Source of the DNA: Romanomermis culicivorax | Lineage: Eukaryota > Nematoda > Enoplea > Mermithida > Mermithidae | NCBI GenBank assembly: GCA_963922205.1 | Contig: CAWUHX010000080.1 | Coordinates: 876,814-940,813, forward strand | Direction: 5' to 3' | DNA: 64,000 nucleotides | Part shown: positions 18,773-57,000 of the stretch, piece after piece | How positions within the stretch are numbered: position 1 is the stretch's first letter | How the letters are laid out: each line of letters starts with the position of its first letter | Notes under the pieces: model-generated | Seen by the model: the letters and a program-made list of their open reading frames with translations, nothing else | The model's database searches: none | What the model was told of the DNA's origin: nothing | Program-made: the position numbers and the translations under genes

Positions 18773-19650
18773 TGTAACGACCAGATTTGTGTGAGGTACT
18801 TTACTTCTAACCAACGGTCGCTACGGCGGGAACAAAGGGGCGCGGGCGGTACAATACAGGCGATAATACACTAATGATCGAAGGTCGCTTGAACGTCGAA
18901 TAACAAAAAGGGAGGGCGCGGTTGCTTGCAAATAAAATATACGACACGGTTTAATTGCTTTCGAAGACGCTTGCTTGCAAATAAAAACGAACGGCCGCGG
19001 ATCAAAATTCACAAAATAATAACTAACTGAATCACGCTTTGCTTCTTCTTTTATACGACGTTTTTGGCCACTCCCTGGGCGTCGCGGGAGGTCGAGCATC
19101 TGTTCATCTTCTTCCGCCAATCGTCGCTTCCTGCTACGCTTTTTATGCTTTCTTAGTTACGCCTTCCTAATGCTTTCCTGGTACTGTATGCTTTACGTGC
19201 TTCACTTGCTTTCTACGGTGGGCTTGGCCACACCTCTGTGCTTCTGTGCATGCTTCCTGTATCGGTTTCTCTGTATACACATGTTTTGTGGGGCTGTCGC
19301 TACCGTTACACTTGAGACTACTGTCTGGCCGGGCTTCTACATATTTTACTGGGTGCAGGTGTTGTTTACGATTTTTACGGGGGATTACGGTAACTGTGGA
19401 ATGTGTAGTTTAGTGTAGGTTCTAGGGGAACAGCTGCCGTTTGTGCAAATTAATTAGGGCATCTTAATTGGGCTACTGGGGTGTGAACGGATCAAAATAA
19501 AGTACTTCACGTAATTTTATAGGAATGTTTGGGTGTGAATCCCAGACACTCTTGGGACGATAAAATGCGAAAATAAAATAATATCTGATAAATGTCTTTC
19601 ACATACAGTATGCTACATATTTACAGTACTGCTTTAGCAGGTACGTTACA
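18773..19650 (-). repeat. 3' LTR of the 9.2-kb element
   Basis: 878 bp with 7-bp inverted ends TGTAACG...CGTTACA. It is collinear with the other LTR, with scattered substitutions, and lies directly next to the polypurine tract. Confidence 0.93.
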
Positions 19651-19663
19651 TTTCCCTCCTTCC
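19651..19663 (-). other. Polypurine tract
   Basis: The sense strand reads GGAAGGAGGGAAA immediately before the 3' LTR, the expected primer for plus-strand DNA synthesis. Confidence 0.85.
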
Positions 19664-19681
19664 GGAGTTGAACCTCCTCAT

Positions 19682-22291
19682 TCAAGGCTTTCGAGGGTGA
19701 AAAGGGGTTGTCTCGTTGACATGTACTGTAAATGTAATATTCTTGTGGGCGTGTTTGAGTGTAACGTTGGGGTACATGAAATGTTGAACTATATAGGGCC
19801 TGTTTTGGCGAGGGAGGAATTTTGGAGTCAGCCCTTGCTTACGCGAATGATTTTTGTAAAGAAGAAGGTCACCTGCTTTGTAATGTATGTTCTGAGCATG
19901 CTTGTTATACTGACGGGTATAGTGGTCCTGGGCTTTTTGTAAACTTTTCTGCACGGTTGAGAGTGCTTCTGTAAAATGTGATTTTACACGAAGGGCGTAA
20001 TCGTCTAAATCAACCATGTAGGACGTGGGGAAAAAATTTAAGGCTGCGTCTGACGGCAGATTAGCTTGCCTACCGTGGAGTAATTCAAATGGGGGATACG
20101 AAGTGCTATCATTTTTATGAATGTTGATCGAAAAAACGGCATATGGTAGATAAGTATCCCAATCAGTGTGATTTGAATTGATGTACATGCGGATACGGGT
20201 GGCTAAAGTTTGGTTGCAATGCTCAACTTCCCCGTTGGCAATGGGATGGTATGGGGTGGTATAAATTTTCTGAGTATTGCATAAACTAGTTATCTGTGAG
20301 AAGAGATCAGATACGAAATCGGAGCCACAATCACAATGAATGATTTTTGGGGACCCATGACAGCAAACAATTTTGGTTACGAATAACTTGGCGATAGTGG
20401 CTGCAGTGATGTCAGGGGTCGGGAATGCCTCTACATACTTTGTGAAATAGTCGATGAAATTGACAATGAATCGATTGCCGTCTTCAGTGAGGGGTAATGG
20501 CCCCATGCAATCAACACCGACTCGATCAAACAAGCCAGTGGGCTGAATTGGTACGAGATTTGCATGTATTTTATGTCGGAGGGCTATGTGTGTCTGGCAT
20601 GGGTGGCAAGTTTTGCAGTAACGTTTGATATCATGGCTCATTTGGGGCCAAAAATATTTCTGCCTGAGTAAGTGTAAAGTTTTCCTGGCAGCGAAATGAC
20701 CTGTGAATTTGCTGTCATGATGAGAGGCAATGAGATGCTGGACCTGTGACTTGGGGATGTAGAATTTTGCTTGTTTGTCGACTATTCGGAAGAGGATGTT
20801 TTGATGTACTGCGAATTTGATCAGAGTGAGGGGGTGTTCTTGGGCGAGTTTTGCTAAAATACTTTTGACAGTTGGATCAGTGCGTTGGAGTTCGGCGAAA
20901 TTTTTCTGTTGCTCTTCTTGTTCAGTTGCTTCAGCTTCCAAAACCGAATTGATAGTGGATATTTGGGGGCGGGTTTCTAATTGCTCAATATCAAAGGATT
21001 GCTTCGCTGTCTGTGAGGGGAATCGAGAAACAGCATCTGCGTTGCGGTTAGCAGTGCCTTTCTTAGGTCGAATGTCGAATTTAATACCAGAGAGGGCTAA
21101 TCCCCAACGGGCAATGCGAGGGGACGGGTTTTCCTTTTGTAAGACTGCTTGAACTGCTGTATGGTCAGTGTGTACAATAACATGTTGCCGGAAAAGATAG
21201 GGGCGGAAATACTTGACAAACTCAACTACTGCAAGGGTTTCCAACTCAGTTATCCGGTAGTTGCTTTCGGCGGGTTTGAGTGTGTGGCTCCCAAAAGCAA
21301 TGGGGCGATCCTGACCTTTACTATCTAGCTGACTGAGAATGGCGCCGATTCCGAGTTTTGAGGCGTCAGTTTGCAGAATAAATGGTTTTGTGAAATCGGG
21401 ATGCTGCAGTATTGGGGCATGAATGAGTAACTCTTTTAGCTTGGTGAATGCGCTTTGCTGTTCAGGGCCCCAGGAAAATTCCAAATTCTTTTTGAGTAGC
21501 GATGTGAGTGGGCTAGAAATTTGAGAGCGATTTGGGATGAATCTGCGATAATAGGAGGGTAGGCCAAGGAATGACTTAACTTCTTTTGAGCTTTTGGGAG
21601 TGGGTATGTCACAGATGGCCTGTATTTTATGGGGATCTGGTGAAATGCCTTGCTGAGAAATGTCCTGGCCTAAGTATTGGACTAGGGGCTGGCAGAATTT
21701 GCTTTTTTGTATGTTTAGTTTAAGGCCTGCTTGGGAGAATCGGGCAAGGATGGTGTCTAAACGTTCGAGCATTTGGGTATGGGAGTCTGCAAATACCAAA
21801 ACATCGTCGAGATATACAAGGCATGTGTTCCATTGCAAACCCGAAAGAATAACATCCATTAACCTTTGGAATGTGGCTGGGGCGTTGGTGAGACCAAAGG
21901 GGAGGTAATTGAATTGATACTGGCCGGCTGAGCAATTAAAGGCTGTTTTATCTCTGTCTGCTTGTGCTATGGAAATGGAATAATATGCATTGGATTGGTC
22001 AAGGAACGTAAAATATTTCATTCCACGGAGGGTGTCTAGAATTTCGTCTATATGGGGCAAGGGGTAGGTATCTTTTTTTGTTACTTTATTGAGGCCTCTA
22101 AAATCAATGAATAAACGATGGCCTCCATCTTTTTTGGGAACTAAAACTGTGTTGGTACACCATGGAGAATTTCTCTGGCTTATGACACCTGCTGCTGCGA
22201 GTTGCTCAACTTCTGTTTGTATGATTTGCTTTTCTTTTGGTGGAAGTCCGATAAAGTTGTCTACGTATGGGTTGGGAGCCATTGGTGTCAA
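19682..22291 (-). CDS. pol: Pol: reverse transcriptase, RNase H, integrase
   Basis: 869 codons, opening at a TTG (first ATG at 22,282), so it probably relies on a +1 shift from the protease frame in the shared 86 bases. RT: catalytic Asp in FTFLDQSNAYYS (about residue 98) and YLDD (160-163). RNase H: TDAS (309-311) with downstream acidic residues. Integrase: HHCC zinc domain (about 524-562), catalytic D594, D654 and E690, and a basic C-terminus without an obvious chromodomain. All main catalytic residues appear present. The second integrase Asp sits in HCDCGSDF, with Cys where the family usually has Gln. Confidence 0.93.
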   Translation of the reverse strand: MTPMAPNPYVDNFIGLPPKEKQIIQTEVEQLAAAGVISQRNSPWCTNTVLVPKKDGGHRLFIDFRGLNKVTKKDTYPLPHIDEILDTLRGMKYFTFLDQSNAYYSISIAQADRDKTAFNCSAGQYQFNYLPFGLTNAPATFQRLMDVILSGLQWNTCLVYLDDVLVFADSHTQMLERLDTILARFSQAGLKLNIQKSKFCQPLVQYLGQDISQQGISPDPHKIQAICDIPTPKSSKEVKSFLGLPSYYRRFIPNRSQISSPLTSLLKKNLEFSWGPEQQSAFTKLKELLIHAPILQHPDFTKPFILQTDASKLGIGAILSQLDSKGQDRPIAFGSHTLKPAESNYRITELETLAVVEFVKYFRPYLFRQHVIVHTDHTAVQAVLQKENPSPRIARWGLALSGIKFDIRPKKGTANRNADAVSRFPSQTAKQSFDIEQLETRPQISTINSVLEAEATEQEEQQKNFAELQRTDPTVKSILAKLAQEHPLTLIKFAVHQNILFRIVDKQAKFYIPKSQVQHLIASHHDSKFTGHFAARKTLHLLRQKYFWPQMSHDIKRYCKTCHPCQTHIALRHKIHANLVPIQPTGLFDRVGVDCMGPLPLTEDGNRFIVNFIDYFTKYVEAFPTPDITAATIAKLFVTKIVCCHGSPKIIHCDCGSDFVSDLFSQITSLCNTQKIYTTPYHPIANGEVEHCNQTLATRIRMYINSNHTDWDTYLPYAVFSINIHKNDSTSYPPFELLHGRQANLPSDAALNFFPTSYMVDLDDYALRVKSHFTEALSTVQKSLQKAQDHYTRQYNKHAQNIHYKAGDLLLYKNHSRKQGLTPKFLPRQNRPYIVQHFMYPNVTLKHAHKNITFTVHVNETTPFHPRKP

Positions 22292-23990
22292 TTGTAGGTG
22301 AAACAGGGGTGGTTCTACCTACATCCATTTTGGATTTAGCATATAATGTAGGATACTTCGATAGGGCGCGTAGGAGTTGCGTCTTTTCGGTTTCTGTGAG
22401 GTCACTAGAGGTTAAATTAACGTTTTGTTTTAACCATGTGAATGTATCGAAACGGTTTGGCTGGTTTTGCGTTGAGGAGGTTACTTTAGTGGAAGCATCT
22501 TGTTTTGGGATGTAACAGGAGACTATCCCGATGCATGTTCCAGGGTAAAGAGTTTGGGCTGTTTCTTGTGTGTTTAGGACCGATATGCGTATGCGACTGT
22601 TTTGGTTTTCAGAGACACAAGCTGCAAAATGAACTTTGGGATTCTGTTTAGGTTTTGGAGTAAACTCAAGCTGTTTAACTTTTAGGTACGATTTGGGCAA
22701 AGGGACAGTGAATTCAGTTACTGTACGGGGTGGTAATTCTAATTTCTCGTCTAGATAGGTTCCACCATGAGTCAAAAGGGGGCTATATTCTAGGCCATCA
22801 CAGGGTAGTATGACATTGCCAAATTTGACCTGAGATTTTTGATTGTTTATAGTGTATTCCGAAAATCGACTGAGAAAGTTTTTGCCTAAAAGGATATCTG
22901 CTGTGCAATCTTTTTGGACATGGACCATGATTGTTTCCTGGATTGTTTGGGCTGTCACTGTGACAAAAGTGGTCCCTACAAAGTGAATCGGGAGATTATT
23001 TGCTGCTTTTGCTTGGACTAGCGGGGGTTTCATGTTTAATTGTAAAAGTTGGGCGATCCGTGAATCAATGAGTGAGTAGACTGCACCAGTATCAATCATG
23101 CCTTTTGTGATTAATTTGCCGTTAAGTGTGATTGGAATATGAGGGGTATGTTTCTCAGGTACATTTTGGGGTGGCTTGTTTGATCCAGATTGGTGAATTT
23201 GATAAATGAGTTCGATTGCAGGAGTTCGGGGGGTATCAATATTGACAAGGACGTATTTCTGCTGCGTTTTTGCCCCACGACGATTAGCTAATTCTAAGAG
23301 AGCATGGCCGAATGATGGGGGGATGGCCTCATGTAGATGTCTGTTGTTTGATGGTATTTCATACACATGTTCATTTGTGGCATGATGCTTTGGAGAGGGG
23401 AAATATTTTCGAAGAACGAGAAAAGAATAAAAGCCGCCTGCAATAACTACAGTAATAACAGCTAGATTGATAATGATTTGCAGGGGTCCTTTGAGCAAAT
23501 TGTTTGATCCGTCCGTGGGACTTTGGGTGGTACTGGTTATTACATGTTCTATGCCTCTACCGGTGCTAGAGAGGGTATTTCCAAGTGCTTGGCCACTGCC
23601 TGAGATCATGTTGTAAACTGTATCTGAGTTGAGAGACATTTGGGCGGTGTGATTGATGAGTTTTTTAACAATGTTTTCAAGTGTGTGAGTTTTATAAATG
23701 TATTGTTTCAAAAAGAGTAAGTTTGTCGAAATTGTTGCTAGTTGATCATGAAAAATTGCGGGTGTGTTAAAATGGAAAAGGGAAAAATTTTGGTTCCAGA
23801 CGATTTCTAAAGGTAAATTTGTGACATGCGGGGATCCTGTTTCACTGACCCATGTATTATTCTGTTTGTAAAGGGCTACATGCATGTGATGGCAGTCAAT
23901 GGTTTGTGAGAAGGGGGTTAAATCGTTGCCTCCTGGATTCAAAAACATGAGCTCGGTTCCTACGATGATGGGTAAAAGTTTGTAGCATGT
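22206..23990 (-). CDS. Envelope-like C-terminal part with membrane span, continuing into aspartic protease
   Basis: Same frame as the preceding ectodomain. After about 140 residues containing further Cys and a sequon comes a hydrophobic span (23,412-23,483) followed by Arg-Lys-Tyr, the expected end of an envelope-like protein. About 110 residues later the frame encodes a retroviral-type protease: DTGA at about 23,082-23,093 with a downstream ILLGKNFL flap-and-core motif (about 22.88 kb). The frame ends at 22,206, overlapping pol; the RT-side continuation is in the +1 frame. A membrane protein fused in frame to protease would need cleavage, splicing or internal initiation. Confidence 0.75.
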   Translation of the reverse strand, partial: TCYKLLPIIVGTELMFLNPGGNDLTPFSQTIDCHHMHVALYKQNNTWVSETGSPHVTNLPLEIVWNQNFSLFHFNTPAIFHDQLATISTNLLFLKQYIYKTHTLENIVKKLINHTAQMSLNSDTVYNMISGSGQALGNTLSSTGRGIEHVITSTTQSPTDGSNNLLKGPLQIIINLAVITVVIAGGFYSFLVLRKYFPSPKHHATNEHVYEIPSNNRHLHEAIPPSFGHALLELANRRGAKTQQKYVLVNIDTPRTPAIELIYQIHQSGSNKPPQNVPEKHTPHIPITLNGKLITKGMIDTGAVYSLIDSRIAQLLQLNMKPPLVQAKAANNLPIHFVGTTFVTVTAQTIQETIMVHVQKDCTADILLGKNFLSRFSEYTINNQKSQVKFGNVILPCDGLEYSPLLTHGGTYLDEKLELPPRTVTEFTVPLPKSYLKVKQLEFTPKPKQNPKVHFAACVSENQNSRIRISVLNTQETAQTLYPGTCIGIVSCYIPKQDASTKVTSSTQNQPNRFDTFTWLKQNVNLTSSDLTETEKTQLLRALSKYPTLYAKSKMDVGRTTPVSPTIDTNGSQPIRRQLYRTSTKRKANHTNRS

Positions 23991-25109
23991 TTAGTTGATT
24001 TTATGGTTGTAGAAGACTTTAGATGCGTTTACTTGTTTACAAGGCCAGATGGTGAGGGCTTCTCCTGTAAATTCTGCTATGATGTCGGTTTGCTGTAGGA
24101 ATGCACGCCCCCCAAGGGTTGCATCAAGGCGCAAAATTTGCCATACGAGATCAAGGTGACGCTGTGCCTGTCTGCATAATTCACTCCAAATGTTTTTGAA
24201 ATTTTGTATCTCGAATTCCTGGATTTTATTTGCTAGATAGTTTAGTTTTGCGTTAATGGGTTCAAAATCATCAAAATCGTATAGTGTAGTATGTGTTTCG
24301 TTGATTTTTGGGGTTAAAAATGCATTACGATGTGGGGTGCTTTTGTCTAATTGTACAATAATGCCTTGTTCGGTTAAAATGCTGTCTTGGATTTCTGGGC
24401 AATTGGGGTTCGAAAAGAGTGTGTTTTTAACCGAGAATGCACCTTGTAGCTCTTCTATTATCATGTGGGTTTGGGTGAGTTTTATGGGATGTGTATTTTT
24501 GTATTCGAAGGGGCATAAGTTTTTGAATGCTGTTTCATTCCAGATAATGGATCCGTCGGCTGTGACACAATGACCTGATGTCGGTTTGCATGACCCCAGG
24601 TCACCTAATGTACCTGTCATAGATTTTCTATTCCAAGATGCTATTTGTCCTATTTCTATGATGACGTTAGTGACCGAGGTACAGTGGTCTGTACAACACC
24701 ATGTGTATTCTACGCTTAGGGAGTTATTTGTTGACCAAAATCCTGGTTGGGTTTCATATAATTTTTGACCGTTGTGTTCTTTGTCTATAACGATTGCCTT
24801 ACAAACATGCGGGGTTAGATTTTGCATTTCGGTTTGGTCGAAGACAATACCTTTTGAGCCAAAAAATCCTGTATTAGTACAAATTTTGCGTTTGCGGACA
24901 CTGCATTTGTATGCGTCTGTTATGTGAGGTTTAGTGGAGGGAATATAGATTTTTCCGAATGTCTGTACGGGTTTGTCTACTGTGGAAGGGGGCATGCATG
25001 ATACAAGTTTTGGTATGCTGACTGAGTGACCGCTCAATGAAGTTCCACACATCTGAAATTGGGCACTACACGATGTGGGGATTATTATACAAAGAAAAAT
25101 ACAAAACAT
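23991..25109 (-). CDS. Envelope-like glycoprotein, ectodomain part
   Basis: Begins with a Met and a short hydrophobic, cysteine-containing leader of about 17 residues that fits a signal peptide. The following ectodomain is cysteine-rich with several N-glycosylation sequons (NNS, NET twice, NAS). A TAA at 23,991-23,993 interrupts it, and the same frame resumes directly in the next entry. In retroelements such proteins mediate membrane attachment or fusion if functional. Overall layout (signal, Cys-rich ectodomain, single late membrane span) suggests a viral fusion glycoprotein. I could not assign a class from sequence alone. Position before protease is the unusual feature. Confidence 0.65.
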
Positions 25110-26158
25110 CGGCCAATAGAATGTTTTAGTGGAGGCGGCGGGGCACTGTGTGTTTTCGTTCTGGCTGGTTTGGCGTGGCGGTTGGTGTTTTGCGGTTTTG
25201 AGCTGAGGGGGTGGCCGGTTTGTAATCTGAACAGTCTGTAAAACTTTAGAAGTTGAGTCATGGATGGGGTTTGGATTTGCTTACTTGTGGGAGTCGGTAA
25301 TAGTGTTTGGCGGGGGCAGAATTGGTAGGGTTCGGGGGTGAGGCCGTGTAAAAGAGACAAGAGGTTACAGCCATTTTTTGATGGTGTTTCGGGGGCGGTG
25401 GGCGACTTGGTGTCTTGTTTTCGGGGAATTTTGTAGTCTGCCAGGATGGTGGGTGGCGATTTTTCAATTTTGGCGGCTTTGGGCATGGGGGGTGGTGACA
25501 TGGCGCACCAATCGGGTACCTCCAGGTCGAGGACGTATTCGTCACTACGGCTGTGGGTAGTGGGCATAATGGTTCCTAAAGTAGTCTGAGGGCCGTTAGT
25601 TATGGGGTGTAATTTTGAGTAAAATGCGGGGTCATCAATGTCCATGAGGGGTTGGGGTTGCCTGTACTCAATGCAATTTTGAATATTACGACTCTGTTGA
25701 TTTGGACAATACCTGCTTGTATGACCTCTCTGCTTGCATAGAAAACATTGAAAATTGGAGTAGGGTTTTGAAAGGCAGTTATCAGATCTATGTCCTGTTT
25801 GGGAGCAGTGGATGCATCGGCTTTTACAATCATGTGTACTATGATTATTACGAAAACAGATTTCACATGATTTTCGGGTGCCTACAGATTTACAATTACG
25901 AGCTACGTGTCCAATTTGTCCACACTGGAAGCATGTGGGTTGCCTAAGGGTGGTATTGTTCCTGTAAGCATTATTCCTGCTGAAAATATTGTTACTGAAA
26001 TTGTTGTAGCTACTCTGTTGTGGGCGTTGAGGTTTTTGTTTGATCTGCAACTGTAAGTCTTTTACTTGTTGTTCTAACTGATGCAAAAGATCCTGTTGGT
26101 CTGTATTTTTGGTTAGGGAAAAGATGGGTTCGGGTTTTGGGGGTATGAAGGGAAGGTG
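25085..26158 (-). CDS. Nucleocapsid-like frame with four CCHC zinc knuckles
   Basis: Opens directly after a stop at 26,159 and overlaps the gag end in the -1 frame, so it most likely continues Gag. A Gln-rich coiled segment is followed by four CX2CX4HX4C knuckles ([56 protein letters not shown]) and a Pro-rich tail of about 190 residues. Knuckles bind the element's RNA. Four is more than the one or two usual in gypsy-type Gag. The 3' end overlaps the envelope-like start by 25 bases in another frame. Confidence 0.85.
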
Positions 26159-27144
26159 TTAGATTTTAACTCATTTCTAAGGATTTGCTGTTCAATGTAA
26201 GCTGCTTTGTCTGACATTTCTTTTAGAGTTGCGAACCGTCTATACTTAGTTGCTTCCCTGATTTCGTTTTGCATGCCTTCTACAAAGAGGGGTTTTATGA
26301 TCATTTCTCGTGCGTCTGTGTTAAAGTTAGGGTAGGCGAGGGTTGCGAGATGTTCTAGATCAAATAAGAATTCAGTTACTGTTTCTGAACGCTTTTGTTT
26401 TCTTTTGCGTAAAAATTGTTGATGTAGCTCATTATCTCTATTGTTTGGAAAAAATGCCTGTAATGCGACTTTATACTGCTCGTATGCGTGTGGAGGGATT
26501 TCGGAATTGGCTAAGCTTTTGAATTTTGCTAACGCAGCTCCTCCTAAATGAATCTCTAAGCATGCCAACTTTAACTGTACATCTGTATCTTTCATGCCTT
26601 GGAGTGCCATGAATTGTTCTAATCTTTGGTTCCATTCACCAAAATGTTGGGTCACGCCGCCCATGAATACTGTAGGTTTCGCGTAGAAATTATTTGCCAT
26701 GTTATTACCAATGTTTGCTGTTCTTAGATCGTCTATTAGGGTAGGGTTTACTGTATTCTGATTCAATTGTGTGCGTAAGGTACGAAAATGTTCTGAAAAT
26801 AAATCGTTTATCTGCTCTCTAACGATTTCTCCTAAATGATCTTGCGTTTGGTGGGTCATTTTCGGTTTACGCTGGGATTTCTGCTTAAATGCTTCAATTT
26901 TCGCTTCACACTGTATTCGTTTAAATGTATCGCTTAATGTTTCATTGGAGGGGATTTCCAGTTTGCTTTCTACAAATACTGTCTTACTGCAGGAAATGAT
27001 TACTACTGTATTATCTAATGCTTCTAAATGCCCAGATAAGAGTACACCTAATTGGGGGCAGGGAGTTCCAGTGGTTAACGGTACAGTACAGTCACCAAAA
27101 TATGTAACGACCAGATTTGTGTGAGGTACTTTACTTCTAACCAA
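26113..27144 (-). CDS. gag: Gag polyprotein (capsid region)
   Basis: A 343-codon frame. The central part has the retrotransposon gag pattern ([10 protein letters not shown], then a helical capsid-like region ending near [11 protein letters not shown]). The first Met lies inside the 5' LTR, and the frame runs through the candidate primer site. A more conventional start is the Met at 26,859, followed by MTHQTQDH. The gag stop lies in a region shared with the next frame (-1), so zinc knuckles are reached only by a frameshift within 26,113-26,158. Capsid proteins of this class build the intracellular particle that packages element RNA. Confidence 0.8.
27081..27097 (-). promoter_or_regulatory. Candidate primer-binding site
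   Basis: Five bases inside the 5' LTR the sense strand reads TGGTGACTGTACTGTAC, beginning with the TGG expected opposite a tRNA CCA end. I could not assign a tRNA, and the site is unusual in lying inside an open coding frame. Confidence 0.35.
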
Positions 27145-27981
27145 CGGTCGCTACGGCGGGAACAAAGGGGCGCAGGCGGTACAATACGGGCGATAATACA
27201 CGAATGATCGACGGTCGCTTGAACATCGAATAACAAAAAGGGACGGCACGGTTGCTTGCAAATAAAATATATGACACGGTTTAATTGCTTTCGAAGACGG
27301 TTGCTTGCAAATAAAAACGAACGGCCACGGATCAAAATTCACAAAATATTAACTAACTGAATCACGCTTTGCTTCTTCTTTTATACGACGTTTTTGGCCA
27401 CTCCCTGGGCGTCGCGGGAGGTCGAGCTTCTGTTCATCTTCTTCCGCCAATCGTCGCTTCCTGCTACGCTTTTTATGCTTTCTCAGTTACGCCTTCCTAA
27501 TGCTTTCCTGGTACTGTATGCTTTTCGTGCTTCGCTTGCTTTCTACCATGGGCTTGGCCACACCTCTGTGCTTCTGTGCATGCTTCCTGTATCGGTTTCT
27601 CTGTATACACATGTTTTGTGGGGGCCACTGCTACCGTTACACTTGAGACTACTGTCTGGCGGGGCTTCTACGTATTTTACTGGGTGCAGGTGTTGTTTAC
27701 GATTTTTACGGGGGATTACGGTAACTGTGGAATGTGTAGTTTAGTGTAGGTTCTAGGGGAACAGCTGCCGTTTGTGCAAATTAATTAGGGCATCTTAATT
27801 GGGCTACTGGGGTGTGAACGGATCAAAATAAAGTACTTCACGTAATTTTATAGGAATGTTTGGGTGTGAATCCCAGACACTCTTGGAACGATAAAATGCG
27901 AAAATAAAATAATATCTAATAAATGTCTATCACATACAGTATGCTACATATTTACAGTACTGCTTTAGCAGGTACGTTACA
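27103..27981 (-). repeat. 5' LTR of the 9.2-kb element
   Basis: 879 bp with the same TGTAACG...CGTTACA ends. It carries a TATA box on the element's sense strand (27,378-27,385) and, 42 bases from its inner edge, an ATG that opens the gag frame. Confidence 0.93.
27378..27385 (-). promoter_or_regulatory. TATA box in the 5' LTR
   Basis: Reads TATAAAAG on the element's sense strand, about 280 bases before the end of the LTR. This is a suitable place for a U3 promoter. Confidence 0.5.
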
Positions 27982-28005: not shown

Positions 28006-28494
28006 GACAAAATTAAGTTCTGTCCTCAACATGAAGAGCTTGTACTGTGGTTTTTGTCTGAAAAAATTTCCTTTAGTGAATGAGTTAATGACCAAGTAAA
28101 AAATTTGACTATTTTGACCCCTATTTGATGAATTCTGAATTATTTTGAAAAAAGGTTTTATTTCCTGTAATCATTACATTGAAATCTACAGAATATCCCG
28201 TCTAAATTTAATGATGAAGAGAATTAATTACTGTATTTATCTCTAAATTTTTGTTTTTCCCCATTTTTGTACATTTGTCACAATTTTTTTGCATTTTTAA
28301 CGATTTTTTGCATTTTTGATTTTTTTGTTGAAAAATTTGCACTGTTCTATTTTGAATTTTTTTCTTTCTTTGTCAAAGTATCCGATCAGCTTTTTTGTAT
28401 GTCTGCAGATGGCCTGCCTCCCATATCGAGACCTATAGGAGTGCTATTATTTGGATGCATGAAAATATATGAAGAGCTTATATTTGTAACATAC
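28006..28494. other. Non-coding AT-rich stretch
   Basis: No gene recognised. It starts with one of two 21-bp ACTGCTTGTATATATAAAACT copies that flank the retrotransposon. Confidence 0.4.
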
Positions 28495-29364
28495 ATGCTA
28501 ACACAGTACTGTAAATATATCGTGTACACAATGTGATAATCATATATTAAATATTATTTCGTTTATTAATCTATCGTCTCAAGGGTGTCTGGGATTCACA
28601 CCCAAACATTCCTGTAACATTAAGTGAAGTGCTTTATTTTGATCCATTCACACCCTGGTAGCCACTATTGACCCAATTAAGACGCCCCAATTAATTTGCA
28701 CATCGGTAGCCGGTCCCCTAGAATCTACATTAAAGTACACATTCCACGGCTACCGTAATTCTCCATAAAAATCGTGAACAACACCTGCACACAGTAAAAA
28801 GTAAAAGCCCCGCCAGACAGTAGTCTCAAGTTGGACAGTAGCGATGGTCCCACAAAACATGTGTATACATAAGAAACGGATACAGAAGCATGCACAGAAG
28901 CACAGAGGTGTGGCTAAGCCCACCGTAGGAAGCAAGCATAGGGAAAACACAAAAAGCATACAGTACTAGGAAAGCATTGGAAGGCGTGACCAAATTAGCG
29001 AGAATAATGAAGCAAGAAGCAGCGATTGGCGGAAGGAAATTGACAAAAACGAGACCTCCCCCGACGCCAAGGGAGTGGCCACAGAAGCCATATTTAAAGA
29101 GAAGCAAAGCATGATTTTGTCAGAATTCTAGATTTTCCGATTCCGCATTTTTATTTGCAAGCCATATTTTTGTTCGCAAGCAGTTAAACCGAGTTCCGTT
29201 CATTTGCAAGCCAGAGCGTGTGTTTCCTTTTTTTGTTATTGACGAGCAAAGCAATCGTCGTTCTCGTTTTATATTATCGTTATTTACTGTATTCTGTGCC
29301 GTTGTCCACCGTAGCCACTGTTTGTTTAGGATCAAGTAAAGTATCACTAGAACTGGTCGTTACA
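28495..29364 (+). mobile_element. Solo LTR, diverged subfamily
   Basis: Begins TGTAACA and ends CGTTACA, with a perfect TATT duplication at 28,491-28,494 and 29,365-29,368. It shares the GGTGTCTGGGATTCACACCC block with the other LTRs, but the promoter-side part resembles the copy at 30.2-31.2 kb more than the full element. Confidence 0.88.
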
Positions 29365-30235
29365 TATTCTATGAAACATAGTTTTTAACATTTAAAAATG
29401 TTTATATGGGGTTGTATTCAGGCAACTACTATGTTATGTTTAGACGACTACTACATTATGCCGTCATGTATTGTTTTTAGATTACATGTTAAAAAAAGAA
29501 AAAAAGAACTTTCCATTTTGTTTTTGAAAAATCAAAAAAAAACTACGCGTAATGCAAACTTTCTTTGATGCTTTTTGTAACAAAGTTTTAACATTTCAAC
29601 ACCAACTGACTACGTTTGGATACCAGAAAAATGGCCGCCCCAAAGAGTGAAACAAAACAAAAAAAATATGTGAAACATTAGCTTTTGGCATCTAAATTAT
29701 ACATCGTCTTACTGTAGCCGTCAATCACTAACTATGTTTTTAAATTTCAAAATCAGTCAGAGTGACCATGGCGCTATAAAATTTAATCAACAAAAATTGG
29801 GAGGAATGTGAAACAAAAGGCTGGGTGGTACATGGATGCATCAAAAGCTATCAAAATGTAGGGTGAAACATTTGCATATTAGTCCCGAAAATGTTCAGAT
29901 TGAAAAATTTTGCTCATTCCGCCAATTTCTCAATGAGTATAACTGCCACATTTATCAATTTTAGTATATTTTACATTTACTGTACTTGTATTTTTTTATT
30001 TACAGCCTCATATATGTATAGGGTATCAAATGTAATATTGTATTCTTACAAATGTCAGGGGCAAGTTACAGTCATCAATTTTTTACAAATTGATCAAAAT
30101 TGATAATGCAGCTTAATTAACGCCCTGCACATATACAAAATTCCAATGCACAAATGTAGTATGTCACAATAGATGTTTTATGTGCAGGGAGTTAATTATT
30201 GGCATATCAATATAATTCCCAAAGTGTGGAAATGG
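29365..30235. other. Non-coding stretch
   Basis: AT-rich with no recognised gene or transposon end. Confidence 0.4.
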
Positions 30236-31178
30236 TGTAACGACCAGTCTGGAGAAGCACTTTACTTTATCCTGAATAGACAGTCGAAACGACGTACAAT
30301 GGAACGGGTAATACGGGGGAGGATTCAATAATACGATTACGGGCGGGTTCAATGATCGCTTGATTCGTCGATGATAAGAATTACAATGCGATAAAAGAAT
30401 TACAATACAACACGGCTTAATAAGAATTACAATACAACACGGCTTAACTGCTTCCAAAAATAAAATCTCGCTCGCAAAACGAAAACGATGTTTGCAAATA
30501 AAACGGAATGATCGCAAAAAACCAAAGACTGAGAACTATGAATTAATAAAATCACGCTTTGCTTCTCTTTAAATACGACGTTTTCGGCCACTCCCTGGGC
30601 TTCATGGGAGGTCTTGCTTCTGTCCATCTTCTTCCGCCAATCGCCGCTTCCTGCTTTACTATTCTTGCTAATTTAGTCACACCCTTCAATGCTTTTCTAG
30701 TACGGCATGCTTTTCGTGTCTTGCTTGCTTTCTACGGTGGGCTTAGCCACACCTCTGTGCTTCTGTGCATGCTTTCTGTATCTATTTCTTCTGTGTACAC
30801 ATGTTTTGGGGGACCATCGCTACCATTGCACTTGAGACTACTGTCTGGTGGGGCTTCTACTTTTTACTGTGTGCAGGTGTTGTTTACGATTTCTATGAGG
30901 AATTTCGGTAGCCGTGGAATGTGTAGTATAGTGTAGGTTCTAGGGGACCAGCTGCCGTCTGTGCAAATTAATTGGGGCGTCTTAATTGAGTCAATAGCGG
31001 CTACCGGGGTGTGGAAGGATCAAAATAAAGTACTTCACGTAATTTTACAGGAATGTTTGGGTGTGAATCCCAGACACCCTTGAGACGATAAATTATGAAA
31101 ATGAATTAATATTTAATAAATGACTATCACATACAGTATGCTATATATTTACAGTACTGCGTTAGCAGGTACGTTACA
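30236..31178 (-). mobile_element. Solo LTR, diverged subfamily
   Basis: TGTAACG...CGTTACA ends with a perfect ATGG duplication at 30,232-30,235 and 31,179-31,182. Longer than the other LTRs, partly through a short internal duplication of AAGAATTACAATACAACACG near 30.4 kb. Confidence 0.9.
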
Positions 31179-35959: not shown

Positions 35960-37603
35960 ATGAATGCATTGCTAGAGAAAAAGGAACAAACTGCTGCCAA
36001 CAGATGGGAATCACCATCGTATGATGTCCTAACGACTGTTGGACCACCAATGCTTGCTGAGCCCATTCTGGAATATTGTCCGCCGCTCCCAGTTGCTGCA
36101 TCCAACCAGCCTTGGATGAATCGTCAAAACACATCAAATCACTGTCATGCTGATGTGTTAGCGGGTGGTGCTTTTCCCCAACCGTGTGCATCTGCTAGAC
36201 AACATGATTTCCCCGACTTACTACCCGAAAATTTTTGCACAATGGATAACGGATGCCCGACCTTTCAAGAGGAGGAGGGTCGAATAAAAGTCATTGTCAA
36301 AAATATGCATCTGCTTCACGTTGACGCTTCCATCATAGATAAACAACTGCTTTGATTCTTCATACGCCTCGAAAACGAATTCCGCCACGATGAATCCAAC
36401 TATATCAAAATGAGTACGCTCCGCTGCCTCACAGGCGATACGCCCAGCAATACGATTCAAGACATAACCCAATACGACAAAGCCAAGAATATGCTCATGT
36501 TTCAACTCGCACCCGATTGCAACAAAATGACGCTCAAATGAGAATTTGCTGCCATTATGCCCGAAACTGGAGAAGAATCTGCCGCCTTTCTCAGTAGGGT
36601 AATGACCTATGTACAGCTTCTTTACCATGAAAAAGATCAATTTTTTCAACACCAAACAATTATTCAAACTTTTCTAATGTAAATGCCTATTTTTTATCAA
36701 CTTTCTATTGGTGAAGAAGCAGAAAAGTTCACTAGTGTACATCAGTTAGCCAATGCAGTAGCTAGAGTTTGCAGCAAACTAAACGCCATGAAAGCAGAGA
36801 TCGGCACCGATGAACAGACGATTGTTGTCCATCAGGCTGTTCGGGAAGCCGTGACACTGCAATCATCAACATCGCCGCCTATGAACAAACGTTTCCACTG
36901 CCGCCATAGCCATGATCATCCAATTGACCGCCGACAAACTGAGTTGCCTGCCTCTTCTGGTAGAAGTCATCGCAGTGATGGCTCTCTATCTACCGTTTCA
37001 ACATCAAATCGCCTCAACCAACAAGAACAACCTCTTTGAATGACAAAACCTCTACAAATCGCATAGCCACGACAGGTATCGAACTCAAAATTGCTGATCC
37101 GCTACCTATGATTTGAACTGGTTTCCGCTGATGCCATCTTCTGGTCTCTCCTGCAACGCCCATAATTCGCGCACTCACAATACCAAACATTGTCACTGGC
37201 TCAAACAAGTCAACACTTTGAAGATGTATCATCAAAACCCCGATCCCCGCATGATGCCCTACACCAGCCAAAATCTCATAACCAACCATCACTGCTACAG
37301 CAATGATATTAGAGCTTTCGACACATGGCAAACTCAACAAACAGGCAACCCTTTGTTCAAACAGCATATTCACTATAATATGCCAGTGCCTCCAACTTCA
37401 ATGCCAGCCTTGCCGGCCCCTCTGACTAATGCAGCCGCTAACACCGCCAAAGTGTCAGATGCTGCGGCCATGGCTCAGCCTTCAACAACTGAGACTCCTT
37501 CCGAATCAATCACCGCCAAGATGATGACTAGCCCAGGAATCATCAGCTGGGATGCCTCCACTCAACCTTCTTATCCGCTGTGGATCATTCAATCAGCCGT
37601 TTG
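35960..37603 (+). pseudogene. gag remnant with stops
   Basis: One frame from 35,960 continues with Gag-like sequence past a TGA at 36,353, another TGA near 36,539 and a TAA near 36,678. After further frame changes a His/Cys remnant resembling a decayed zinc knuckle (FHCRHSHDH) is seen near 36.9 kb. No intact product is possible. Confidence 0.55.
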
Positions 37604-37670
37604 CTGAATCAACAACCCGGCACTATCTGATACAAAATTCATCCAAAAATATGCCGCAACAAGTGCCTTC

Positions 37671-38543
37671 ATGATAGGAGTCAAAGTTAGCAACATCAAA
37701 ATGAATGCTTTAATCGACACTGGTGCTCAATGTTCCGTCCTTTCATCCCGCCTCATCCAACGAGCTTTGGATAAACAAATGCTTTGCTTGCCCATCTGTG
37801 GAAAGATAAAGGTCGCCGATGGTGCCACGGTCACTGCTCATGGTCCTGTTATCATCACGATGGGATCCCCATTCGGGGAACATTTAGTCAAGTGTGTCGT
37901 TCTCGATGATGATGATCAAGATCAATTTATTATTGGCACCGACTTCCTCGCTCATCCCCAAATCAAGGCCATTCTCAACTTCAAAGAAAAATTTCTCGAA
38001 ATCCAAAATGTCAAAATGCCGCTCAAAGTAGTCACTTTGATCAAACCACAATCATTTCTACCAACATTGTGCGACAATATTTTGGAAGAAATCCCTCTGG
38101 AGGAACAAGTGAGTATTTGTGATAATTTTTCAGAAACTGATAGTCAAGTTGAAGAAATCGAAGCCGAACAACGGATACAGCAGGCTCAACCTAGTCCACA
38201 CCAACTGCCCTCACGGCGGCTGGAGGTCACAGAGCTTGCCGAACCTATCTTCCTTGTCACTCAAGCATCCATCTCCGTTTCGCCAAACTGTCAGCAATGG
38301 ATAACCGGCACCGTTTTTCCCTCCATGCTTGTTTCTATCCCAGATTTGATTGTCCAACCATTGACCACCAACAACGTTGCCGCAGAATTCCCAATCGAAA
38401 CCGTGATTGTCAACGTAACCAATGGAAGCTGCTCACTTTTGTTTGTCAACAATATGCCGAATTGCATCAAACTTCGAGGGAAACCAAATTGTTGCCATGG
38501 CCAAACACATGTTGGAGTCTGGTGCTGCCCTGATCCAGGATAG
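37671..38543 (+). pseudogene. Retroelement aspartic protease region
   Basis: Encodes a retropepsin-like domain: LIDTGAQCSVLSS at about residue 15 and FIIGTDFL about 80 residues later. The frame then runs on in a Glu/Pro-rich linker and is overlapped from 38,422 by the RT frame. The core motifs are intact, but its neighbours are broken, so no functional polyprotein is expected. Confidence 0.7.
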
Positions 38544-39744
38544 CGACATCCGTGTTTCAGTTGCTGCATTGGATCGTGATTTGACTGACCATGAACCGGC
38601 CGCACTGGACAAATCGCTACCACTTCATACCGACAACCAAGAATTGGAATTAGCTTTGAACAAGATGACCGAAAAAACCCACGTTACTTCTGCTCAAAAA
38701 GCAAAGACCCTCAGCATGCTTCGGCAAAACAGGGACGTCTTCAGCCTCCCTGGCGACAAACCAATGTTCACCAACAAATTGATGGTCAGCATTGACACCG
38801 GCACTGCAAAACCAGTATCCGGCCATTATTACCTTGCCCTGATGGAACAACGACCAATTGTCCATCGCCATATCCAAGAAATGCTTGACAACGATTTTAT
38901 CAAACAATCACGCTTGCCCTGGGCCGCATTACTATTCCTTGTAAAGAAAAAAGATGGCTCTTGGGGACCCGTTGTCGACTACCGTGGAATAAACGATGTT
39001 ACGCCCAGCAACAAATTCCCGATCCCGCGCATCGAGGACTATTTGGATGTTATGGGACAAGCAAAATTTTTCACCATGCTCGATCTCAAAGCCGGGTACT
39101 GGCAAGTACCTCTGGACAATGACTCCCGCAACAAAACAACCTTTATCTGCCAAGAAGGTTCGTTTCGATTCAAAGTTTTGCTGTTCAGTTTGAAGAACAT
39201 GCCTGCCGAAGCCAGCAAGAAATACTACGACCAAAAAGCCCGCAAAAGAGAAATTAGCGTTAATGACCTCGTCCTTTTGGTCAACAATAAAAAAGGTAAC
39301 AAAATTCAACCAGATTTTTCATCATCACAGATGTCAGTAATATTGATAACAATACGGTTACAATTGATGCTTTGGATACGCCTGGCCCACAGCAGCTTGT
39401 CCCCATTTCCCGATTGGAGCCCTTTATTCCATGCCCAGCCCGAGACACTTTCATCACGGAAGCCGGTGGATCACACGGCCAACAAATGGATGCCACCCAG
39501 CAACATTAACTTCAGAGTGCAAAATTTTTTGGTTGGGATGACCCTCTGGATTTTTTCTTCTTTCCCCTTTTATTTTTCTTTATTCTATCCTATTTTACAA
39601 CGCCGCATAAATTGTTTGCCGATCCCGACTGCCACAACATCGATGCCTACAACAGACGATTTTTGTTTCAATTATATTTATTTGCATGCTAATTTTGTTT
39701 ATTTATCCCCTTTTTATATATGTATATTTTCACTTGCACCGTAA
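38422..39744 (+). pseudogene. RT fragment fused to integrase C-terminus by deletion
   Basis: The first part is a normal gypsy-type RT start ([19 protein letters not shown], then [18 protein letters not shown] with the first catalytic Asp). At about 39,205, right after LKNMPA where RT should proceed to the YxDD motif, the frame jumps to [20 protein letters not shown], which is typical of the integrase C-terminus. YxDD, thumb, RNase H and the integrase core are missing, so the protein cannot be active. Confidence 0.8.
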
Positions 39745-45001: not shown

Positions 45002-48000
45002 CTGTATTAATAAGGCGAAAAATTTGCGGATATTTACAGTATAGGTAATTTAGGGGATGATTCCAGAAGGTAGGATATTTTCAGATGTTACTGTATTTCA
45101 GAATAACTGTATCAAACCTGTGAAACTGTTATCCGAATCTGAAAATTTTTTTCCAGGATGAGGAATGTGTTGGCACTCAGGAGAGTAGACTTACTGACAT
45201 ATATTAGTAACACATTTTTTGAGAAAATTTAGCTTCAGAATTTAAAAAATTATAACCTTTGTGATCTACACAAGTCAAAAATTGAAGATTTTGAATTTTT
45301 GACACACACGTCTCCTAACTTTTGCAGGTTTAGCCACGCCAGACATCGTGTTCTGTAAATCTACCTACTATTAGGGAAATGCATGGGCAACAAATAATTG
45401 CAGGATTCATTAGTTTAGAGTGCTCATTAAAAGCAGTGCTAGAAACATCAAAGTTTTAGAGAAAAAATTGCAATTTTTTGACACATAATGGGTAAACGCG
45501 TTGCCATTGTAACCATCGCCAAACACTGTTCGAAAAATAATGCTCGACCAGGGTTCGAACCCCGGTGTCTGTGACTATAGTGCAGTGTTCTTCCGATTGA
45601 ACTACCGAGCCAGTGTCGGGATTGTTACGAAGGGGTGATCTATGGTCGTGCAACACATGACATTCCCGGGCCCCTCCCAACACCGCCACCGTCCCAACAC
45701 CGCCACCATCCCAACTCCGCCACCGTCCCAACTCCGCCACTATCGTGTCCCAACACCGCCACCGTCCCAACTCCGCCACCGTCCCAACTCCGCCACTGTC
45801 CCAACACCGCCACCGTCCTAACGCCGCCACCGTCCCAACTCCGCCACTGTCCCAACTCCGCCACTTTCTTGTCCCAACTTTCGCAATCTTTTAAAAAGTT
45901 TATTTTTTGTAATGCGTTAAACTTAACCAAACGTGCTTATCAGATCAATGAATGAACAATATTTTAAGATATAAGTGATAATTTTTCCGTGTCAATGTAT
46001 CATATTTATTCATCAACTCCGAATGCAAATTTCAACATTAACCCAATAGATGCACTAAATGACGCAAATAATCTGTTATTCTGGCCATCAAATCGTTCCC
46101 GTTCTACTCTTTAATTCCTGATTCATAAAATTTTCAATAGGACTAAAGTCACCCATGATTTGATTACACAAACTCGAATCAATTGACAACAAGAAATGAA
46201 AACAGATCCGTATGTTTGTATTTTAATGTGCAAAGCACACAGTTATTTTGGTAATATGCTAATGAAGTAAATTACGGTCTCACGCTCGTTGTTCTATTTT
46301 TGGTTATTTCGGTAAAATCGTTTGTATAGTTAAGTACGACTATACAAACGAAGATTATATAAATATACCATGTATTTATTGCTTTAATGATAATATCAGT
46401 TTTTGCCATCCTATGAATTAGCAATGTCATGTTGTTAAGTAAAAAAAAACTTTGTTACAAAAAACAATCTTTTTGAAAGATTGCGAAAGTTAGGACAAGA
46501 AAGTGGCGGAGTTGGGACAGTGGCGGAGTTGGGACGGTGGCCGAGTTGGGACGGTGGCGGTGTTGGGACAGTGGCGGAGTTGGGACGGTGGCGGTGTTGG
46601 GACACGATAGTGGCGGAGTTGGGACGGTGGCGGAGATGGGACGGTGGCGGTGTTGGGACGGTGGCGGAGTTGGGGCATGATCACATTCCCCCCCCCCCTT
46701 GAAAGAAGGACAACCTCGTCCATTGAAGATGCAGGTTCTGCGGCCCACCAATGTGGGATCAATCCAAGCCTGGCCATGACATGTAATGGGTAAACGCATT
46801 GCCATCCTAACCATCGCCAAACACTGTTGGAAAAATAATGCTCGACCGGGATTCGAACCCGGGTCTCTGTGACCATAGTGCAGCGTTCTTCCGATTGAAC
46901 TACGGAGCCAGTGTTGGGGTTGTTACGAAAGGGTGATGTATGGTCGTGCGACACGTGACATTTTCACAAAAATCAACATATACTGCTGAAGCTCAGAAGC
47001 ACCACAAACTCACCTCTACGGTAGACAGTCTAAAATGTCTTCTAGCTGCTGACAAAAAAATTAGGAAAATTTTTTGGCTAGTCGTTTTTTGCTGTTTTGC
47101 TAGGTGGTCGCATGATTTCGAGTAAGAACACCTTATAATTACTTTACTGATAATTGCCGCCTCCATTGTGGAAAATCACAAGTTGATATATTACAAAAAT
47201 GAGATATTAGAATAAGTTTCGTATAATGAATATTAAAGCAATTTTCATTCTGAATAAAAAAATAAATAGCCACAATACTTCAAAGTTGAGAATTTTTGCA
47301 TTTTTAAAGCATTTTTCTGTCTATTCAAAAAGAGACTTGACATGTACCGACCTATGCAGGAACTAACTCTATCGTTACGGGCGGAATACAATATTCTATA
47401 ATGTGGTACAGTCTTCTATATTTTGCATTTTACACAATTGAGAAATTTTAAAATGTAAATTATGAAACGTTAAGGGACACTATAAAATCCTGTAATAAAT
47501 TGTAGCCGCCTCATATTTGGTAAATTTACAGAACACTATCTTTTGCGCTCCTAACAAAAGTGAAAAGAAGTATATGTCAAAAATCGAAAATCGTTAACTT
47601 TAAGCTTTTGTCTCACTATAGCCATGCAAGTTTTGACTTTAAGACTAAATGAATATTATTTTAGTTCCTAACGCATCAAGTTATACCTGAAAGGAATTTG
47701 ATGAATCTTGAAAAATTCTGAGCACACTCAAAGTATAGCTAGCTATCGGGAAAATATCAACAATGTGACGAAAAAGCAGATATACTACACATACTTGGAG
47801 ATTGCCCTGTTGTGAAAATATTTTGGAATGATCTAGGACTAACTGTAAACCTTTTGGAACCAAATTTTAGTTCCGAAAGGACTGGCATAATCTTAAGAGC
47901 AAACCTAACAGGAAATTATCAAACGCCATAAATATTTTGATAATTTTCACAAAATTTACAAAATTACAAATACAAAAAAAACAACAAATATTTTAAAAAT

Positions 48001-54000: not shown

Positions 54001-57000
54001 AACTGAAAACACTCCACTTGCTTGGATAATATTATCCATAACGCTTAATAAGTCGTGCCTTTTTTACCCAAGCCTCGACCATGCATTCGAAAATTTTTTA
54101 AGGTGAGATTTCTGCTGTTCAAAAATTTTGAATACACAAATTGGGAGTAAAGAGGATTTTAGGATCTTGCGTTGTGGTACGAGTGAGAAGCATACCACTA
54201 GATGTGTTCTATATCAAAGAATGATGTGACGAGAACACAACTGTCATTATGCAATAGATCAGCAATAATCACAAAGGTTTTTTTGGACACCCGGTTTCAC
54301 ATCCTAGTTTTCAGAAAATATCTCAGGTTCAGATGACCATACCGAATTGAAAATTATTGAGGGATGTAAGGCATTGAAACCCCTAACAGCTCCGGGGAAG
54401 TTTTGGCCTCAAATGCAGTTAGTAGCTTCAAAAACCGTCTGTGTAAGATATAAAATTGTATTTTCAGTAGCTAAGCTTCAATCCGAGCAGAGCCTAACCC
54501 TTACTTTGCCTATACCTGGACTCTTACAAAGCTGAGCCTTTTCTACCCAAAGTTTTGGCCATATGTACTCGAAAATTTTTCGAGTGGGCTCTTTGCTGTA
54601 ATTTCACCTTAAGTGAAAGGAGCTAACTGCAAGGATTCAAAATATGTAGCTTATGTCATAAATAATTTGCAAAGAAAACACTGTTCAAAAATTCTTAATA
54701 TGCGAATTACGTACAAACACGATTTTGGGATCTGGCTTCGCGGTAGCAGTGAGAAACATGCTGTTATGTGTGTTTCATATGAGAGGATGGTGTGGCAAAA
54801 AAACAACTGTCTTCAGTCAAAACATCAAACAAAATTCTTGAAAATGAATTGAGATAAACTGTTTAACGTCCCATTTTGTGAAAAAATCAAAAATGGTCAA
54901 AAACGTGAGAGGTCGAAAATTTTTCGAATTCGCTGCTGATTAATGTCAAAAGTCGTTCTTTTTTTACCCATTTTTGGTAATGCACTCAAAAAATTTTCGA
55001 GTGGGGGGGGGGGTTTGCTGTAATTTATTTCAGAGGTACTTTGCATGGCATTTTCAGAAAGTGCTTTTCAAAAAAATTTTAAATATGTAAGTTATGTTGT
55101 GATTAGATAATTTACAATGGAGATATGAATGTTTAAAAATTCTGAATATGCAAATACAGCACTCGATATCTGGCCCAGGCTTAGTCGTAGCAGCATCAGC
55201 CGTGTTAGGACACCCTGTTTCACATCTCACTTTTCTGAGAATATTTTCAGATTTAATGGTCGTAAATGCTTGAAACTTGTTCAGGAATGTAAGGCAAGAA
55301 ATTCTCTATAGTTACTTAGAATTTTAAACGTGGAGTGCAATTAGCAGCTTCAAAAAAGATCAAAAACATGAGTCTTTTAAATCCTTTGATTGTACGGCCG
55401 ATTGAGGGTCGAGAGTTAATGAAAGAAATAAAAAAGCTGATGAATATATGACAATACTGTGCAATTTAGTCTTGTAACGTACCTGCTAAAGCAGTACTGT
55501 AAATATGTAGCATACTGTATGTGATAGACATTTATTAAATATTATTTCATTTTCACATTTTATTGTCTCAAGGGTGTCTGGGATTCACACCCAAACATTC
55601 CTATAAAATTACGTGAAGTACTTTATTTTGATCCGTTCACACCCCAGTAGCCCAATTAAGAAATTAAGATGCCGCAATTAATTTGCACAAACGGCAGCTG
55701 GTCCCCTAGAACCTACACTAAACTACACATTCCACGGCTACCGTAATCCCCCGTAAAAATCGTAAACAACACCTGCACACAGTAAAATAAGTAAAAGCCC
55801 CGCCAGACAGTAGTCTCAAGTGCAACGGTAGCGACGGCCCCACAAAACATGTGTATTCAGAGAAACAGATACAGGAAGCATGCACAGAAGCACAGAGGTG
55901 TGGCTAAGCCCACCCTAGAAAGCAAGCGAAGCACGAAAAGCATACAGTACCAGGAAAGCATTAGAAAGGCGTGACTAAGTAAGCATGAAAAGCAAAGCAG
56001 GAAGCGACGATTGGCTTCGTTTTTTCAAACCGCGCTCATCTCGTTTTATATTTGCAAGCAGCCATTTTTACGAAAGCAGTTAAACCGAGGCCCCTTCATT
56101 ATTTGCAAGCTGAGACCCCATTCTTTCGTTATTTGTATTCGACATCTCAAAGCAGCCGTCGATTAGTATCCATATTGCCCCGTATTGTCGAATCGCCCGT
56201 CTCCCCCCGCGCCCCGTTTCGTTGCGTGACGTCCATTTGGTTAAAGTAAAGTGCTTCACAAAATCTGGTTGTTACAGTCTTTTATAATGATATATGCTCA
56301 TTGTTCAGATTAGGCTTAGGCTTAAACACAGGTTCCGACTTAGATTTTGCTGAGCATTCATTACATGTCCTTGAGGGGTTTGGGGGTTTGTGACCCCACC
56401 CTGGCTGACCCTCAGAGGAGTTTTAATTTTTGGGATTTTTTGCATTTTTACATGAAACATAGATTATTTGAAAATGTTGGAAATTTATGGGGAAAATGAA
56501 TTTTTTCCAGTTAGAACTAGAAGAGCACGCTGAGAAACAGCTGAAAACGAAGTTTTGGATCATAGTGATTAGTTTCGAACAAAAATTCGTGGCTGATCAG
56601 TCCCAAAATTTTGGCACTTACGTACATAATGATCTGTCGAATTTTTTTGTGTTTTGGGTTTAGGCTTATCCTAGGCTTGAGGCTTCGGCTTAGGCTCATG
56701 CTCGGGCTTAAGTTTAGACTTAGGCTTAGGTTTAGGCTTAGGCTTAGGCTTAAGTTTAGGCTTAAGCTTAAGCTTAGGCGTAGGCTTAGGCTTAGCCTTA
56801 GGCTTAGGCATAAGATTAGGCTTAGGCATAAGATTAGGCTTAGCCTTAGGCTTAGGCATAAGGTTAGGCTTAGGCTTAGACTTAGGCGTAGGCTTAGGCT
56901 TAGGCTTAAGCTTAGGCTTAGGCTTAGCCTTGGACTTAGACTTATATACTTATGGGTAAAAAACATAAAAAAATTCAATAAGTGGCTATGTAATTGCTGC

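Follow-up and report, generated by a model that had tools for sequence, protein, structure and literature searches.

Structure of the element

The window, a stretch of 64,000 nucleotides from Romanomermis culicivorax, contains an LTR element of 9,209 bp on its minus strand (positions 18,773–27,981). The 5′ LTR (27,103–27,981, minus strand) and the 3′ LTR (18,773–19,650, minus strand), the latter preceded by a polypurine tract, agree at 857 of 884 aligned bases, an alignment that takes in 5 flanking bases. The LTR termini are TGTAAC...GTTACA, and TATT is found on the outer side of each LTR. The TATT may be a target duplication; neither this nor the LTR end is certain, because TATTT also borders the 5′ LTR internally. 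Inward of the 5′ LTR, after this TATTT, comes the sequence TGGTGACTG, a candidate primer-binding site.

All genes of the element lie on the minus strand. In this copy gag, counted from its first Met to where the capsid frame stops, occupies 26,113–26,859 and is matched by two of the proteins described below, P0004 and P0006. Four CCHC zinc knuckles mark the nucleocapsid (NC) at 25,706–25,933. A preliminary description had the knuckles end at 25,085, which is merely where the open frame stops; their true end is 25,706. A signal peptide follows at 25,062–25,109; in sibling copies it is internal to a polyprotein. The Env ectodomain is read in two parts, 23,994–25,061 and 23,481–23,990, which match the Pfam profile PF24664 at 4e-6 and 1.5e-7, respectively. 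They flank an in-frame TAA (23,991–23,993) that is not present in unbroken siblings. The membrane span lies at 23,400–23,480 and can also be read in a sibling. The preliminary account of an env gene running from 25,109 to about 23,400 was thus right as to the signal peptide, the richness in Cys and the single span, but the reading frame it described is interrupted in this copy by the TAA.

Downstream of env lies the aspartic protease (PR; 22,800–23,150; gag-asp_proteas, 2.8e-8). Its DTGA, anticipated near 23,090, is found in the motif MIDTGAVYSLID at 23,099–23,064 on the minus strand. Reverse transcriptase (RT) occupies 21,300–22,318 (RVT_1, 2.6e-36; Ty3, 2.7e-109), the coordinate 22,318 being where the RT open frame of this copy starts; its YLDD lies at 21,823–21,791 on the minus strand. 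RNase H (RH) and integrase (IN) lie at 19,682–21,299; the Ty3 match extends over them, and integrase motifs are present. The integrase stop falls 31 nt short of the 3′ LTR.

Read from stop to stop, gag, NC, env-PR and RT-IN of the window copy are spread over three frames. Since siblings lack both these frame breaks and the TAA, we regard them as lesions of this copy. The window holds a second retroelement fragment (37,098–39,744, plus strand), which carries PR and RT; four Env queries found no match in it.

Sibling copies

Is the position of env ahead of PR a property of one copy or of a family? A DNA search of the genome scored 40 places out of 1,120 candidates, namely the window copy and 39 others at 94–95% identity. 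The NC-to-RT stretch was fetched for the first 20 of these 39 siblings. In all 20, each of them found through env, the order is NC-Env-PR, in agreement with the preliminary description of an env-like gene between gag and protease. NC, Env and PR share one frame in 13 of the 20, and the whole 4.6 kb stretch is open in nine. Because most fetched siblings have one frame, an arrangement of gag and env-pol as overlapping separate frames was ruled out and frameshifting was dropped from consideration.

A protein search scored 110 places out of 3,618 candidates. In 68 of these 110 copies the open-frame value reached or exceeded 2,450 codons; a TGA lies inside the match in one of the 68. The commonest open frame, of exactly 2,486 codons, occurs in 28 copies. 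Frames are shorter in 42 copies and fall below 1,500 codons in 17 of the 110. Of 30 further loci, 28 have NC, Env and PR in one frame; the window copy and L069 do not. All family copies were located through env, and these counts speak for env-bearing copies. At the 3′ end, an integrase match is followed after 34–82 nt by an LTR in 18 of 20 sibling 3′ parts; the other two (L034 and L044) have the LTR and gave no integrase match. The sibling layout, in a single frame, is CA-NC-signal peptide-Env-span-PR-RT-RH-IN. The element in the window is best read as a decayed member of a large family of the Ty3/gypsy type.

Diverged relatives

How far does this arrangement extend beyond the family? A search of the same genome with PF24664 gave 68 scored matches out of 2,320 candidates, all above the cut-off, with spans and frame lengths that vary among them; the same search in 14 control genomes gave no match in any. 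In two diverged families of this genome, L079 and L080, with Env identities of 44% and 58% to the window family, a single frame runs from the linker through signal peptide, Env and span into PR. The knuckles stand in the same frame in L079, while the read of L080 starts behind them.

Five proteins from other sources, P0003 found with a longer natural piece and P0004–P0007 with an alignment, have Env at the same place, as far as each extends. A protein search with the 372-amino-acid env piece by itself had no match, which is probably due to its length filter. Their domain positions were mapped with separate query pieces. P0006 is a Gag-Env-PR-RT-RH-IN protein of 2,461 amino acids, with CA at 96–269, a CCHC knuckle at 353, Env at about 541–1101, PR at 1217–1339, RT at 1535–1859 and RH-IN at 1861–2389. 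Hydrophobic stretches lie at 505–525 and 1068–1102, and two additional ones at 14–38 and 1671–1688. P0004 is a single protein that runs from CA and a knuckle by way of an internal signal peptide, Env and PR into the first part of RT. P0006 likewise has its signal peptide internal, between gag and Env. P0003 (1,424 amino acids), P0005 and P0007 have the order Env, PR, RT with no gag in the same protein. P0007 bears the label of a Desulfobacteraceae MAG, which we infer to be contamination.

An alignment of seven lineages, from which the partial P0007 was omitted, has 75 invariant Env columns, 16 of them Cys. Env identity falls to about 32% across the lineages. Over the 21 lineage pairs, which are not independent of one another, Env identity and PR identity are correlated with a Spearman coefficient of 0.70. 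The simplest reading would be one old capture of env followed by joint descent. Env stands ahead of PR in these seven lineages, a place that is constant in the family and in its diverged relatives.

Identity of Env and Pol

What kind of protein is Env? PF24664 (Monjiviricetes_fusion) matches the two env pieces of the window collinearly. The first piece covers profile positions 296–387 at 25.5 bits, just below the cut-off of 27; the second covers 396–462 at 30.2 bits, above it. The comparison with viral glycoprotein profiles that the preliminary description had proposed is more telling in unbroken siblings: the Env of L013 and L017 match at 6.1e-19 and 6.9e-19 (67.9 and 67.7 bits, against the same cut-off of 27). 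Weaker similarities, below their cut-offs, were to Bornavirus G (0.0015, L013 only) and to herpesvirus gB (0.009 and 0.0097 for L013 and L017). We conclude from these matches to PF24664 that env is no chance frame and that Env is related to the fusion glycoproteins found in chuviruses and their kin.

Env may have a class III fold. An AlphaFold model of P0005, built from six input sequences, was rejected at a mean pLDDT of 42.8. The env pieces matched no sequence in the PDB, and a search there with the Env-PR alignment returned matches to PR and RT only. Nor was there a match in IMG/VR, which was searched with an env piece and with P0003.

The best match of RT-RH-IN among solved structures is Ty3 (7q5b, E = 2.7e-109), spanning RT to IN. 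The LTRs, the polypurine tract and the order PR-RT-RH-IN are those by which Metaviridae are recognized. The Env of that family is placed downstream of integrase, whereas here it sits between NC and PR. Belpaoviridae are defined by a BEL/Pao pol with Env behind it; the element has Ty3 as its best match and Env before PR.

Purifying selection

If the capture is old, is Env still under selection? The ratio dN/dS was estimated from an alignment of nine fully open copies at pairwise distances of 1.8–4.1%; the choice of open copies biases this sample against nonsense changes, not against missense changes. The capsid part gave 0.09, the knuckles 0.28 and the linker between NC and signal peptide 0.33. 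Values of 0.28 and 0.15 were obtained for the short signal peptide (17 codons) and span (23 codons). The two halves of the ectodomain gave 0.08 and 0.05, the Env-PR joint 0.09, PR 0.07 and PR-RT 0.06. The alignment allows for a two-codon indel among the copies that shifts the register of gag, NC and linker. Purifying selection on env and on the env-PR joint, which the preliminary description had put forward as a check, is accordingly borne out by ratios of 0.05–0.09, and the constraint on Env is about equal to that on PR.

Expression and topology

How might an Env that precedes PR be expressed? We think it probable that the element makes a single Gag-Env-PR-RT-RH-IN polyprotein that is split across a membrane at the internal signal peptide. 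Gag would be translated in the cytosol, and the signal peptide at the Gag/Env border would then direct the chain into the ER. The Env ectodomain would fold and gain its disulphide bonds in the lumen, until the single span halts transfer and PR-RT-RH-IN is made in the cytosol as the tail of Env. Signal peptidase would cut at the Gag/Env border, after which PR would release Gag and Pol. All three products would in this way be made in equimolar amounts and kept at one membrane, unlike in retroviruses, and the outcome would be enveloped particles.

A polyprotein is suggested by two observations taken together, the one frame from gag to integrase and the lack of a conserved start codon for Env. The signal-peptide site was located by exact motif in 17 siblings (3 of the 20 could not be located in this way), and an ATG stands there in 11 of the 17 and is absent from six. 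The shorter frames in 42 of the 110 copies count against the polyprotein model, as do the ATG where it is present, the Met exactly at the signal peptide of P0005 and the lack of gag in P0003, P0005 and P0007, and tolerance of equal amounts of Gag and Pol must be counted as a further difficulty. Glycosylation sequons are denser inside the ectodomain than outside it in L013, L080 and P0003. L079 shows no such enrichment, and sequons therefore lend the topology no firm support.

Might Env-Pol instead be translated apart from Gag? Splicing or trans-splicing of the mRNA could bring this about, as could internal initiation or reinitiation, and Env-Pol would then be a type I membrane protein that begins with the signal peptide and has Pol for its tail. 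The signal-peptide ATG in 11 of 17 siblings would suit this, and the first Met of P0005 falls exactly at its signal peptide, for which reason some relatives may indeed make a separate Env-Pol. There is also a precedent for splicing in Cer1 of C. elegans, which, according to the available part of its description, makes a spliced mRNA. Against this, six of the 17 siblings lack the ATG; the nearest in-frame upstream Met is 129, 78, 33 and 300 residues off in L013, L079, L080 and P0004, respectively; and gag and env share a frame in many copies as well as in P0004 and P0006. A simple scan of the internal region with generic splice motifs, which may not be those of the host, found no strong donor-like site (0 against 1.85 in shuffles), and acceptor-like sites at chance level (10 against 8). 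On balance we consider separate translation unlikely. Of the three strategies named in the preliminary description, the sequences favour a membrane-anchored precursor over splicing or internal initiation.

Two further explanations concern what Env is for and whether its position is real. Env may no longer serve entry and may have been kept as an anchor, fastening Pol and Gag to a membrane inside the host cell. The family is, after all, a high-copy genomic element, and no furin-like R.[KR]R site was found within the Env of L013, L079, L080 or P0003. An anchor would need the signal peptide and the span; yet constraint extends beyond these to the entire ectodomain (0.05–0.08), and all 16 invariant Cys are kept in seven lineages. 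We therefore rate this as improbable, more so than separate translation. The broken frames of the window copy might, finally, suggest that the juxtaposition of env and PR arose by rearrangement of this copy. Such a rearrangement would be betrayed by other copies with env absent or placed after integrase. None appeared among the copies recovered, all of them found through env, and the order is the same in 20 of 20 siblings, in L079 and L080, and in P0003–P0007 as far as each reaches. These findings refute a rearrangement, to which we attach next to no weight.

Beyond the membrane-split polyprotein itself, a broader proposal can be made, tentatively and at rather less than even confidence: that this is a deep Ty3/gypsy lineage, present in several organisms, which has given up the gag-pol-env order of retroviruses for a gag-env-pol polyprotein in which Pol, as the cytosolic tail of a fusion glycoprotein, enters particles by way of the envelope membrane and not by way of Gag.

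What would follow? The order gag-pol-env is the textbook order for enveloped reverse-transcribing viruses, and it governs the expression of Env, the Gag:Pol ratio and the packaging of Pol. An Env that stands in frame before PR, with identities down to about 32% and with the frame open in dozens of copies, indicates that an alternative solution works. A membrane-split, alphavirus-like strategy thereby becomes directly testable in a retroelement. Annotation that seeks env solely after integrase will overlook gag-env-pol elements.

Comparison with known systems

The polyproteins of alphaviruses and flaviviruses carry an internal signal sequence after a cytosolic capsid. They share with the proposed model a polyprotein topology split by a membrane, and differ from it in that their genomes are unrelated. 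We know of no reverse-transcribing member with such an internal-signal topology. Foamy viruses express Pol from its own mRNA; they are an analogue of a separately translated Env-Pol and not of the polyprotein favoured here.

With Metaviridae, including Errantivirus, the present family shares LTRs, polypurine tract, CA-NC, the order PR-RT-RH-IN and a Ty3-like RT-RH-IN. It differs in that Env stands inside the gag-pol frame, after NC and before PR. From Errantivirus it differs, in addition, in that its Env matches PF24664 and not the errantivirus type of Env. The ICTV profile of Metaviridae states that Env, if present, is encoded downstream of integrase, which agrees with what the preliminary description had held for known members. 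By its LTRs and pol the element is accordingly classed as Ty3/gypsy, yet it lies outside the stated Env position of the family.

Two candidate precedents were dropped. Cer1 is likewise a Ty3/gypsy element with one long gag-pol frame, but the available part of its description gives the domains as GAG, PR (amino acids 735–859), RT, RH and IN, with no Env in that list. Troyka is reported, in the portion of the source at hand, to be without an envelope. The literature searched, which included few subscription papers or preprints, yielded no gag-env-pol Gypsy element.

Parallels also exist among the BEL/Pao elements, as far as the available parts of their descriptions go. Atlas virus, a belpaovirus of hookworm, encodes one Gag-Pol-Env polyprotein of 2,828 amino acids without stops. 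It shares with the present family an Env derived from an RNA virus inside a single polyprotein; it differs in that this Env is C-terminal, class II and phlebovirus-like, and in that its pol is of the BEL/Pao type. Anakin, a BEL/Pao element of mosquitoes, has captured a chuvirus glycoprotein and so carries a glycoprotein from the same broad group (Jingchuvirales). Its pol, by contrast, is of the Pao type, and the envelopes known from BEL/Pao elements are described in the same paper as following the polyprotein. In a survey of 2023 the authors of that paper report, in the part available, no clear evidence that Gypsy elements have captured such glycoproteins. With the family described here, a Ty3/gypsy case joins the known captures of Monjiviricetes glycoproteins.

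Constraint along the NC-to-RT region

Where, between NC and RT, is the coding sequence least constrained? Among the nine sibling loci of the main element's family (L013–L026) that are free of frame breaks, dN/dS by region showed the lowest constraint, at 0.33, in the linker that joins NC to the signal peptide (window ~25110–25700). A two-codon indel among these open copies falls in the same linker. This linker is a probable location for processing sites.

In L080, the locus of a diverged family in the same genome, the protease motif is DCGA, as against DTGA or DSGA; the protease frame is open despite this. A search of the same genome with PF24664, the fusion glycoprotein profile that matches Env, gave, among its scored matches, three on one contig (G000 C180:404–17640), spaced by exactly 8,365 bases and each containing one TGA. 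They represent either an assembly repeat or a tandem array of LTR-sharing elements.

Surroundings of the main element

Just outside the main element, at 28481–31000, are two more LTR-like stretches in mutually opposite orientation. Their complementarity to each other is piecewise, at 76–98%; they are pieces of related LTRs. A second, decayed retroelement (37098–39744, +) matches Asp_protease_2 (3.6e-9) and RT (8.2e-9). Four Env queries detected no Env within it. By eye, a knuckle-like Cys/His motif is seen upstream of its PR.

A tRNA-like gene (46838–46909, −) was assigned to tRNA-His; its anticodon, ATG, is an unusual one. The exon encoding a formin homology 2 (FH2) domain at 56520–57506 (−; 5.4e-37) belongs to an ordinary host gene.
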